From the NCBI GenBank assembly GCA_029938085.1, contig JAPYOS010000005.1:62001-126000 (forward strand): a stretch of DNA of 64,000 bases, written 5' to 3'. Made by a program: the position numbers and the translations under genes. Source of the DNA: Oceanospirillaceae bacterium. GTDB taxonomy: Bacteria; Pseudomonadota; Gammaproteobacteria; Pseudomonadales; Balneatricaceae. The notes beneath the pieces are model-generated. The model saw nothing but the letters and a program-made list of their open reading frames with translations. It did not search any database and had not been told where the DNA came from. This document shows positions 16,727 through 43,540 of the stretch, piece after piece. Every line of letters begins with the position of its first letter. Within the stretch, counting starts at the first letter, position 1.

Positions 16727-18877
16727 ATGCGCGCACTGAATCAATTTTTGCCCCTGTACCTGAGCTGTACATTATTACTTATGGGCAACGGCTTATTGTT
16801 CATCATTATCCCCATGAGCATGCGCTTGGACGGACAAGATACCGATGCCATTGGTTTGGTTATGTCGCTGTATTTTGTGGGTATGCTGTTAGGTTCTTTG
16901 TACGGCCGCCATTTGATTAGCCGGGTGGGGCACATTCGTATTTTTGCCGCCTGCGCATCTGTTGCCACCATGTGTGCCTTACTCCATAGCATCTGGTCTG
17001 TACCCCTAGTATGGGGCGTGCTGCGGGTACTCATAGGCTTTACCAACGCCACCTTCTTTATGACCATGGAAACTTGGCTTAGCGAAAGCTCGACCAGCGA
17101 AAACCGAGCCACGGTATTTGGCAGTTACCAGTTCGTTACTTATTTTGGTTTAGCGTTAGGCCAACTCATGCTTAATTTTGCCGAGCCTCAAGACCCCATT
17201 CTCTACATCTACGTTGCCATGTTATTTTGCCTGTGTATGATTCCGGTGCTTATGAGTCGTTCCGGCGGCCCGCGTATTAATGAACCCGAAGCGATGCCGC
17301 TAAAGACGCTCTATCGCACTTCGCCACTAGGCGTTGTGGGTATCATGATCTCTGGCATTTGTTTAGGTGCCTTTTACAACATGAGTAGTGTGTATGGCGC
17401 TGACGTGGGTATGGACAAAAGCCAAATAGCCACCTTTATGAGTGCCACCATGGTGGGCGGTTTCTTATTACAGTTCCCCATAGGTAAATTAGCCGACACC
17501 TTTGATCGACGTACAGTGTTAGTCATGACCCTATTGGTGGCCTGTTTAGCGGCCATGATTTTACCCATTATGGCGAATCAAGGCGAGATGCTCATCACTA
17601 TTGTTTGCGCCGTGATTTTAAGCGGTGCGTTAGCCTGCGTTTATCCTATCGCCTTAGCCGATGCGTTTGACCGCCTAAAACCCACAGAGATGGTGGCCGC
17701 CAGTGGCAAACTCATACTCGCCTATGCCGCCGGTGGCGCTATTGGCCCTTACACCGCATCTCTGGTGATGAAGCACGTGGGTGCCGAAGCATTATTTGGT
17801 TATCTCATCGTCGCTAGCTTAGTGTTAGTGGCTTTTGTCATGTATCGCATGAGTATTCGTTCCGCAGTTCCCGACGCCTTACAGGAAGCGTTTGTGGTGC
17901 AGGGTATGACACCTATGGCCACAGAGCTTGATCCCCGCACCGAATACAACAGTCTTGATGAAACCGGCATCGCTGCCGAAACCGTATTGCTTCTGGCCGA
18001 GGAAAACCCAGACGATGTGGTGGAAATTGCCGTAAGCGTGGCACTTAACCAACCCGACGAAGCCGTTAACATTGCCCAAGCCACCGCCTATAACTACCCT
18101 GACTGTGCCGAAGCATTAGCCATTGCCCTAGCGGACGAGTTGCCACACGATAAGCTGGACATCATTACCAGCGTTGCAGGCTCAGCGCCACAATCGGGGG
18201 CTGCTTTGGCACGTTATATGTGTGACTTAATCAAACAACAAAAACTAGAGCCCCAAGCGAGCTTTAAAGCCCTAAGCCGTCTCACCAGTAAATTGTTGGA
18301 CCAAGCGCCATTACAAGCCGCAGAAATTGCCGCTATTGTCAGCCAAGAGATTGCCGACGACATGCCTGAGTTAGTGGCAGAGATTGCCGTGTTAGCTGCG
18401 GAAGCGGCGCCAGATCAACGGGTAGAAGTGGCTGCGGCAATTATTCAAGAAGTACCTGAAGCCAGTGTGGAAGTAGCCGCCGGTGTAGCCGAAACCATCG
18501 CCGCCAGCCCAGACGATGAATTGCATTCCTTTTTGGCCGGTGAAGACGATGAAGATTATGTCGGTGAAGGCGCAGAGTTGGCCATAGCGGTTGCTCTAGA
18601 AGCGCCAGATCAAGCCCTGCTAGAAATTGCCACAGTAGTGGCCGAAGCGCTACCCGAAGACGCCGCTCAAGTAGCGGAATCCATGGCTCAGGCCGACCCA
18701 GAACAAGCCTCAGACATTGTTGACAGCATTAGTGAAGCGGTCCCAGAGATGGCAGATGACGTCATGTACGCGGTCGCCAGTTCGTTACCCGAACAGGCCG
18801 AAGAATTATTGCAGGAAGTACTGCTAGATGCCGAGTCTAACGAGTCGGCCACGCTTGAAGTAGAGCCTCGGCAATAG
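16727..18877 (+). CDS. YcaD-like MFS transporter with a long acidic repeat-containing C-terminal extension
   Basis: 716 aa; transporter part to about residue 375 (LVMSLYFVGMLLGSLYGRHLISRVGHIR...), then about 335 soluble Ala/Glu/Asp/Pro-rich residues in about 15-residue periods. Confidence 0.85.
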   Translation: MRALNQFLPLYLSCTLLLMGNGLLFIIIPMSMRLDGQDTDAIGLVMSLYFVGMLLGSLYGRHLISRVGHIRIFAACASVATMCALLHSIWSVPLVWGVLRVLIGFTNATFFMTMETWLSESSTSENRATVFGSYQFVTYFGLALGQLMLNFAEPQDPILYIYVAMLFCLCMIPVLMSRSGGPRINEPEAMPLKTLYRTSPLGVVGIMISGICLGAFYNMSSVYGADVGMDKSQIATFMSATMVGGFLLQFPIGKLADTFDRRTVLVMTLLVACLAAMILPIMANQGEMLITIVCAVILSGALACVYPIALADAFDRLKPTEMVAASGKLILAYAAGGAIGPYTASLVMKHVGAEALFGYLIVASLVLVAFVMYRMSIRSAVPDALQEAFVVQGMTPMATELDPRTEYNSLDETGIAAETVLLLAEENPDDVVEIAVSVALNQPDEAVNIAQATAYNYPDCAEALAIALADELPHDKLDIITSVAGSAPQSGAALARYMCDLIKQQKLEPQASFKALSRLTSKLLDQAPLQAAEIAAIVSQEIADDMPELVAEIAVLAAEAAPDQRVEVAAAIIQEVPEASVEVAAGVAETIAASPDDELHSFLAGEDDEDYVGEGAELAIAVALEAPDQALLEIATVVAEALPEDAAQVAESMAQADPEQASDIVDSISEAVPEMADDVMYAVASSLPEQAEELLQEVLLDAESNESATLEVEPRQ

Positions 18878-19244
18878 GCCGGTTAGCCTCTGGAATAGTG
18901 AGTTGCGCTAACCTACTGGCATCCACCCACAAAGTAGGCTGGCCTTCTAAGCCCTTTGCAGTGCCGGTAAAACCTTTGACTAGGTAGAAATACAAAGACA
19001 CATGTTTGTCACTATAGTCGTGATGCACGGCCTGCAATAGCTCACAGGCCTGCTCGTCGATATGCAGGCCAACCTCTTCCTTGAGTTCCCGGCTTAAGGC
19101 TTGAAAGTGGTTTTCGCCGGCTTCGATTTTGCCACCAGGAAATTCCCACTTACCACCTTGGTGTTGCCAATCGGCACGCTGCGCCATCAAAATACGATGT
19201 TGACGATCAACCACGATGGCAGCCACTACCTCAACCCGGTTCAT
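18837..19244 (-). CDS. mutT: Nudix hydrolase (MutT-like 8-oxo-dGTP pyrophosphatase)
   Basis: Nudix box GGKIEAGENHFQALSRELKEEVGL; next to argJ-secA. Confidence 0.9.
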   Translation of the reverse strand: MNRVEVVAAIVVDRQHRILMAQRADWQHQGGKWEFPGGKIEAGENHFQALSRELKEEVGLHIDEQACELLQAVHHDYSDKHVSLYFYLVKGFTGTAKGLEGQPTLWVDASRLAQLTIPEANRPIAEALLQAWPTR

Positions 19245-19260
19245 GACCCGAGTACCACCA

Positions 19261-20475
19261 TCAACTGCGGTAATCGGCATTGATTTTAATGTAATCGTAA
19301 GACAGATCGGTGGTCCAAACGATTTCTTTTGCAGTGCCTCTGTTTAGATCCACTGCAATGATAATTTCTTCCTCATCCATGACCCGCTGACCCGCTGCTT
19401 CGGTGTAGCTTTCGGCTCGTCCGCCCTGCTCCACCAACAAGGTGTCACCTAAATGAATGGTTAAGGCATTCACATCTAGATCAGGCACTCCAGAATAGCC
19501 TACGGCAGCTAAAATACGCCCCCAGTTAGCGTCACTAGCAAACATGGCTGTTTTTGTGAGTGGCGAATGAGCAATGGCGTAGGCAACTTGCAAACATTCT
19601 TCTGTATTGCCACCACCGGCCACTTCTACACTAATAAACTTGGTTGCGCCTTCGCCGTCTCGCACTATGGCGTGGGCCAGTTGCTGCATTAACTCAACCA
19701 GTGCAGTGCTGAACTTGCATTTTAACTCGGTATCATCATCGAGTGACAGGTCACTGGCACCGGTGGCCATTAAAATACAGGAATCATTAGTCGACATATC
19801 ACCGTCTACGGTGATTCGGTTAAAGCTATGATTAACGCTTTGCTCCAACAGTTGTTGAATCAGCCCCTGTGAACAGGTTGCGTCGGTGGCCACAAAGGCC
19901 AGCATGGTCGCCATATTAGGGCGAATCATGCCAGATCCTTTGGAGATACCGCTGAGGTTAATGGTCTGGCCTTGGTGCTGAATTTGTACACTGGCACCCT
20001 TAGGACAGGTGTCGGTGGTGAGGATACCCCAAGCTGCATCCTGCCAGCCGTTTAAATCCAGTGCACTTACTGCCTCTGGCAAGTGTTTGATGATTTTTTC
20101 TACTGGTAATTTTTCACCAATAACACCGGTGGAAAAAGGCAGTACTTGGCTGATTGCTAAACCTAATTCTTGTGCCAACGCAGCACACGTAGCCAACGCA
20201 TCGGCGTCGCCTGCTGCTCCGGTACCGGCGTTGGCATTACCTGTATTAACCACCAATGCTAACGGCTGGTCCGCAGCTAAATGGCGGCGACAAAGGTGTA
20301 CCGGCGCCGCGCAAAAAGCATTGGCTGTGAATACACCCGCCATGGTCGTACCCGCTTGGGCCTGGATAACCACTAAATCTTTACGATCTAGTTTCTTAAT
20401 ACCCGCCTGTGCAGTACCTAAACACAGACCTGCGATGGGGTGGTACTGCACTTCAATTGTTGGTCCAACTGCCAT
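19261..20475 (-). CDS. argJ: Glutamate N-acetyltransferase / amino-acid N-acetyltransferase
   Basis: 404 aa; KGSGMIRPNMATMLAFVATDA with ATML self-cleavage motif. Confidence 0.95.
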   Translation of the reverse strand: MAVGPTIEVQYHPIAGLCLGTAQAGIKKLDRKDLVVIQAQAGTTMAGVFTANAFCAAPVHLCRRHLAADQPLALVVNTGNANAGTGAAGDADALATCAALAQELGLAISQVLPFSTGVIGEKLPVEKIIKHLPEAVSALDLNGWQDAAWGILTTDTCPKGASVQIQHQGQTINLSGISKGSGMIRPNMATMLAFVATDATCSQGLIQQLLEQSVNHSFNRITVDGDMSTNDSCILMATGASDLSLDDDTELKCKFSTALVELMQQLAHAIVRDGEGATKFISVEVAGGGNTEECLQVAYAIAHSPLTKTAMFASDANWGRILAAVGYSGVPDLDVNALTIHLGDTLLVEQGGRAESYTEAAGQRVMDEEEIIIAVDLNRGTAKEIVWTTDLSYDYIKINADYRS

Positions 20476-43080: not shown

Positions 43081-43171
43081 GATAACCGAGAAGGTGTGCG
43101 TGCCATTGGCAAAGCCAATACGAGCAGCGACAGAGTCACAAAAACACGATTTTTTTGACTCAAAAAAAGGA

Positions 43172-43540
43172 GAGAAAGCCCGCACCATAAGCCGGGTTCT
43201 GTCGTGGACAGTCATTCATCTAGGACCTGCGTCGCCACAGGCCTCTTGCGACCTACCCGAACCCAGTGCGGGCCGCACCTATTGGGTTCCTATTTGGTCT
43301 TGCTCCAAGTGGGGTTTACCATGCCGTAACGTGTTGCCACGTACGCGGTGCGCTCTTACCACACCCTTTCACCCTTACCGCCCGATAAATCGGGGTTGGC
43401 GGTCTACTCTCTGCTGCACTGGCCGTCGGCTCACGCCGCCCAGGAGTTACCTGGCACCTTGCCCTATGGAGCCCGGACTTTCCTCCCCTAATTTCACACC
43501 GAAATGGAAACTAGCAGCGACTGTCTGGCGGACTTTCTCG
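43172..43540 (-). ncRNA. rnpB: RNase P RNA (class A)
   Basis: Minus strand contains GGGGAGGAAAGTCCGGGCTCCATAGGGCA and CCTAGATGAATGACTGTCCACGACAGAACCCGGCTTAT; P1 arms GAGAAAGTCCGC / GCGGGCTTTCTC pair; U-tract follows. Confidence 0.95.

Follow-up and report, generated by a model that had tools for sequence, protein, structure and literature searches.

An MFS transporter with a C-terminal acidic tail of 15-residue repeat units, common in one gammaproteobacterial family

INTRODUCTION

What does a long, acidic and apparently soluble extension do at the end of an MFS transporter? The question is raised by a gene in the stretch of 64,000 nucleotides analysed here (the window; Oceanospirillaceae bacterium, GCA_029938085.1, contig JAPYOS010000005.1, positions 62,001 to 126,000), in which a sequence-only reading had seen a YcaD-like MFS protein running on in the same frame into an acidic domain of degenerate 15-residue repeats. 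Where an MFS transporter carries a fused domain, this usually sits at the C-terminus and possibly has a regulatory role, CBS, CNBD, PAS and UspA domains being examples; cytosolic transporter domains that directly sense substrate or ions are also well known (PMC10710835). As in the CBS, CNBD, PAS and UspA fusions, the soluble domain of the window protein follows the last transmembrane helix and is presumed to be cytosolic, but it differs from them in being a predicted alpha-solenoid built of 15-residue units, for which no matching family was found in Pfam, NCBIfam or PDB.

RESULTS

The gene and its MFS domain

The 716-aa protein is read from one open frame without an internal stop (Table 1). 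The same one-gene fusion recurs in 13 of the 14 other genomes of the genus, the fourteenth copy being cut by a contig end, and this recurrence, together with low dN/dS (see below), rules out an annotation artefact or mis-joined frames. The window's own genome carries a single copy of the tailed gene, no second copy being found there, and also encodes a tail-less MFS paralogue (L116). Over its last 41 bases (18837-18877), the gene overlaps a convergent Nudix-type ORF (18837-19280, minus strand).

Membership of the MFS is clear from a Pfam MFS_1 match at residues 11-327 (1.7e-42; 146 bits, cut-off 33.4). Among NCBIfam models, PRK03633 (YcaD) comes closest, matching residues 12-372 at 6.6e-45, which agrees with the description of this part as YcaD-like. 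The score of 153.8 bits is, however, below the curated cut-off of 361, and the window protein is not a YcaD equivalog; the 382-position model, moreover, has no such tail.

Hydropathy and loop charges taken together fit 12 helices with the N- and C-termini inside; a plain hydropathy scan by itself misses or splits some of the 12. Three loops (residues 60-71, 177-194 and 253-263) contain three Lys/Arg each and the sequence RMSIR follows the last helix, making the loop at 374-378 positive. On the strength of these positive loops, both termini of the MFS domain are placed in the cytosol. Hydropathy in the tail reaches a maximum of only 1.35 (19-residue span, residues 620-638), in a segment that contains Pro and acidic residues. 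The tail therefore has no convincing transmembrane segment, as had been noticed from the letters, and its predicted location is cytosolic. We conclude that the gene encodes an MFS protein with a C-terminal fused domain: a single frame with a soluble tail that is conserved across the genus.

The tail after the MFS part comprises 316 aa from residue 401 and has a net charge of -58, and the repeat region proper covers residues 416-690 (window 17972-18796). The sequence-only reading was right that there is a tail but had it begin at 17866, which is one base out of frame, the in-frame start being 17867. From residue 401, the linker reads LDPRTEY... The LDPR motif is found in 16/16 sequences of the clade formed by the genus and its sister genus and in 52 of the 54 other long-tailed sequences; it also occurs in the tail-less relatives L038 and L040 and is common to many tail-less relatives.

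Table 1. Features of the tailed MFS gene (positions in the window)
Feature	Residues	Position	Strand	Basis
Whole gene: MFS transporter with C-terminal tail of 15-residue, predicted helical repeats	716 aa	16727..18877 (stop included)	+	single open frame
MFS domain	1-400	16727..17926	+	Pfam MFS_1, PRK03633 (below cut-off), hydropathy and loop charges
Linker, starts with LDPR motif	401-415	17927..17971	+	LDPR conservation
Repeat block 1: six contiguous 15-residue units	416-505	17972..18241	+	unit profile; tail-model helices H15-H103, mostly pLDDT near 90
Repeat block 2: two degenerate units	516-545	18272..18361	+	unit profile; tail-model helices H109-126, H128-142
Repeat block 3: three units	550-594	18374..18508	+	unit profile; tail-model helices H147-193
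Low-confidence acidic break (..GEDDEDYVGE)	595-614	18509..18568	+	tail-model residues 197-208 below pLDDT 50
Repeat block 4: five units, one inserted residue (630)	615-690	18569..18796	+	unit profile; tail-model helices H214-H286
C-terminal helix and variable acidic end	691-716	18797..18874	+	tail model H288-310, then low confidence; end poorly conserved

The repeat unit

BLOSUM autocorrelation of the tail gives peaks at lag 15 (z=7.3) and lag 30 (z=6.2), both above the 4.3 that marks the 99.9% null maximum across all lags, and the same autocorrelation shows no lag-15 peak in the MFS part. Lag 15 ranks first in 15/15 tails (that of the window and 14 homologous ones), with one of them, L039, just under the 99.9% level. 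With a 15-column profile trained on the family, 16 units are recovered in the window (score 231), whereas 500 shuffles average 0.65 units and never exceed 4. The training set comprised 590 distinct units taken from 56 tails, the window's own units included, and the autocorrelation is a test independent of it. The 15-residue period read by eye is thus significant, and the eye's count of about 15 units was close to the number recovered.

The unit consensus is A-V-[ED]-[LIV]-A-x-A-[LIV]-A-E-A-x-P-[ED]-Q, with a hydrophobic face at positions 4, 5, 8 and 9 and acidic residues at positions 3, 10 and 14. Per-column similarity is 0.85 for neighbouring units, 0.73 for next-but-one units and 0.83 for random pairs. 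Since neighbours are no less alike than next-but-one units, we take the unit to be one 15-residue helix and not a 30-residue hairpin; a two-helix unit is not supported, as unit similarity gives no sign of alternation. At the DNA level, no self-match was detected in the window tail at E<=1e-4, in agreement with the remark that the repeats are not obvious in the nucleotide sequence, and 'old protein-level repeat' is therefore the right description for the window gene. Having a period of 15, 16 units and one predicted helix per unit, the tail fits the definition of an alpha-solenoid repeat.

Predicted structure and database matches

An AlphaFold2 model of the tail, built from the tail and nine sequences of the genus, is an alpha-solenoid (pLDDT 79.7, pTM 0.64) in which a regular series of mostly 14-residue helices, one per unit, is broken at Pro. 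Confidence is low at tail residues 1-12, 197-208 and 311-316. The tail helices are reproduced in a full-length AlphaFold run, where the MFS part has no confident model (mean pLDDT 52). The model thus predicts an ordered solenoid and not a disordered or single-domain structure, and the old short-helix solenoid suspected earlier is supported by the periodicity, the unit profile, the model and the selection described below.

Repeats of the TPR, HEAT and Armadillo folds consist of 2-3 helices and about 30-50 residues. The tail resembles these folds and designed solenoids in its stacked helices, but it differs in having one helix and 15 residues per unit. A Foldseek search of the tail model against solved structures gave no match at E<=0.001; the top-ranking structures, TPR proteins and designed helical repeats, reached E about 0.01 (best 7e-3) with TM-scores of 0.1-0.4, and there was no fold match among viral structure models. 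No significant match to the tail was found in Pfam, NCBIfam, PHROGs or PDB sequences. In Pfam, the window tail matched nothing better than E 0.15, and a single sub-cut-off TPR_19 hit (E 0.29) among the relatives' tails does not place them with the TPR, HEAT or Armadillo repeats. INTS1_R4, Rho, BarA and RNA polymerase subunit F came up at chance level and are not credible relatives. The MgtE_N domain (PF03448) is also short-helix, acidic, cytosolic and attached to a transporter; the two domains are alike in these respects but show no profile similarity, a comparison for homology being negative (hhalign probability 0.2-0.4%). No annotated domain matches the tail. Literature searches, the scope of which did not take in the fusion survey of Willson et al. 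2019, found no description of the tail. We conclude that the tail repeat is uncatalogued, and that the architecture, an MFS protein with a C-terminal fusion, is of a kind already recognised.

Unit number and motifs

In the 70 long-tailed sequences, tails of 199-598 residues hold 5-23 units, and two nested members have 4 units. All 70 are acidic, with -11 to -21 net charges per 100 residues. Distal blocks are duplicated at the DNA level in three relatives (L027, L028 and L031; 66-85% identity). As such duplicates are present in some relatives and absent from the window, expansion is recent in the former and old in the window's lineage. In another sequence (L113:5242-6042(-), G784, at a contig end), four nearly identical blocks of ~65 residues, each made of units and an acidic linker, show that the tail has expanded in tandem very recently. 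Beyond the window's genus and the sister genus, long-tailed sequences are marked by two motifs: a mid-tail R-[PY]-[AVI]-D in 52/54 and R-[LF]-[YF] in 43/54. Both are absent from all 16 sequences of the window's genus and sister genus.

Selection on the tail

The tail is under strong purifying selection. Its dN/dS is 0.033 (window-L007), 0.020 (window-L008), 0.053 (L004-L006) and 0.043 (L003-L009), and that of the MFS part is 0.012-0.032 wherever it was computable, all values being limited to close pairs, with dS saturated in most others. Comparison of the two parts indicates that the tail is kept as protein, ~2-3x less tightly than the transporter.

Distribution and history

The window's genus consists of uncultured Oceanospirillaceae, ASP10-02a among them. 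The tail profile was detected in 68/117 genomes of the same family and in 16/392 genomes of an even sample of the order, where two (G454, G561) hold a different, secreted protein. Across the class, 2/369 genomes were positive, and one of these (G244) lies outside the order; its protein (L042, 703 aa) has a full MFS plus tail, by transfer or old inheritance. The architecture had been called unusual, which is so across the class, where it is rare, but not in the organism's own family, where it is ordinary, and C-terminal MFS fusions as such are recognised.

A tree of 98 MFS domains, which has long branches, places the 70 long-tailed proteins without exception in a single group, at a fork whose support of 94/83 is just under the starred level. 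The group also includes three sequences with short tails, two of them with four units each (L054, L055) and one (L167) with a 129-residue tail and no units at threshold, as well as two without a tail. One of the latter (L038, G029) is a genuine 422-aa protein that has lost the entire tail, no remnant being found downstream. The other (L114, G797) is a broken copy: at L114:2923-3759(+), tail and linker occupy a 279-aa frame apart from a 458-aa MFS frame, and the locus looks frame-broken or mis-assembled. The long-tail label changes five times on the MFS tree. The clustering of the tailed MFS domains favours one gain followed by rare loss as the likely history.

The search for relatives of the whole architecture, proposed with the original observation, thus found many, but the parallel search for the tail alone gave no convincing stand-alone gene among the genomes searched. 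Three tail-only candidates (G784:C23, G852:C133 and G003:C103) were rejected as lying at contig ends, the G797 candidate is the broken copy above, and a match in G167 (E 5e-4) is an unrelated helical protein. Plasmid carriage of the tailed gene was looked for and not found.

A sister MFS subfamily (L154, L156, L161-L163) that branches, with weak support, beside the long-tailed group has a helical tail of 131-140 aa with Pro-spaced units. These tails differ in having 2-4 profile units and in their weak acidity, with -0.7 to -8.6 net charges per 100 residues. Comparison of the two profiles gave a suggestive match (61.7% probability, P 7.7e-5; 0.2% for MgtE_N), from which a short helical tail may predate the long one, and the tail of 131-140 residues is possibly the ancestral short form.

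A 15-residue period is also seen in a secreted-looking, Ala-rich protein of ~339 aa in two genomes of family f14 of the same order (L056:1246-2262(+), G454; L057, G561). It consists of strict units (..APSQAAAIAAAAAKA..) with z of 9.7, 8.1 and 7.5 at lags 15, 30 and 45, and has Pro-Ser-Gln turns; unlike the tail, it has a signal-peptide-like start, no MFS domain and far more Ala. Pfam gave nothing above chance. Its weak match to the tail profile (2.6e-10) is open to composition bias, so the likeness could be convergent; the protein may belong to a family of its own that uses this repeat.

Gene neighbourhood

Neighbouring genes are partly common to the genus and its sister genus g9, namely gcvP (L094) and Nudix, argJ and secA (L093). 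In other genera, no conserved neighbours were found. An operon partner was accordingly rejected, and genomics supplies no candidate partner gene. Elsewhere in the window, at 43171-43536 (minus strand), lies an ordinary class A RNase P RNA (Rfam RF00010, 327.8 bits).

DISCUSSION

The window gene joins an MFS transporter to an uncatalogued repeat in one frame, and this fusion is conserved, spread throughout its clade and variable in unit number. We propose that it encodes an inner-membrane, YcaD-like transporter, the cytosolic C-terminus of which would be drawn out into an acidic alpha-solenoid of 16 units, each one helix of ~14 residues and most broken by a Pro-Asp/Glu turn. Such a stiff arm, joined to the last transmembrane helix, would present an elongated interaction surface at the cytosolic face of the inner membrane, on which a partner might dock. 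This could be a regulator, an enzyme that uses or supplies the substrate, or further copies of the protein itself. Docking would then couple or localise transport. Since unit number varies under purifying selection, a repeated or elongated binding surface fits better than one fixed active site. We give an even chance to the tail being a cytosolic docking or regulatory arm, where partner binding and an effect on the transporter are what we infer; a role in folding, stability or membrane crowding would look the same.

Ion sensing and self-association are the main rivals to the docking arm. The tail could be an intracellular sensor that gates transport on binding divalent cations or in response to ionic strength, much as the acidic N domain of the Mg2+ channel MgtE (MgtE_N) works, but without shared ancestry. 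MgtE_N is likewise short-helix and acidic. The acidic unit positions together with the charge of -58 would suit such a role, as would the precedent of cytosolic transporter domains that sense a substrate or ion directly (PMC10710835). We nevertheless consider a sensor unlikely: the profile similarity to MgtE_N is absent, the alignments revealed no invariant metal-site pattern, and a range of about 4 to 23 units is hard to reconcile with one fixed gating interface.

Self-association, in which neighbouring solenoids would pack and cluster the transporter in the membrane, seems distinctly unlikely. Near-identical stacked helices with Ala-rich faces could form arrays of variable valency, but the high net negative charge opposes like-with-like packing unless counter-ions bridge it, and the designed helical-repeat assemblies that head the Foldseek matches all fall short of E<=0.001. 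That the tail is a functionless by-product of repeat expansion, tolerated as soluble and acidic, is very unlikely: unit number does vary widely, some blocks are recent DNA duplications and G029 has lost the tail, but dN/dS of 0.02-0.05, retention in over half of the family's genomes (68/117) and the R-[PY]-[AVI]-D motif in mid-tail, near-constant in long-tailed sequences beyond the window's genus and its sister, argue against it.

Beyond the docking arm itself, the tail may found a new alpha-solenoid class with one 14-residue helix per 15-residue unit, arising in one MFS clade of the order, as a variable-length multivalent arm tuned by block duplication; this wider proposal is tentative and on balance doubtful. 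If it is true, duplicated blocks would tune reach or valency and the transporter would gain an evolvable docking platform. The highly regular 15-residue unit is a simple scaffold for protein engineering, and the natural series of no tail, short tail and 5 to 23 units could be used to probe the effect of a soluble arm on a secondary transporter. The finding adds to the domains fused to MFS transporters an uncatalogued helical repeat whose unit number evolves while the transporter stays the same.
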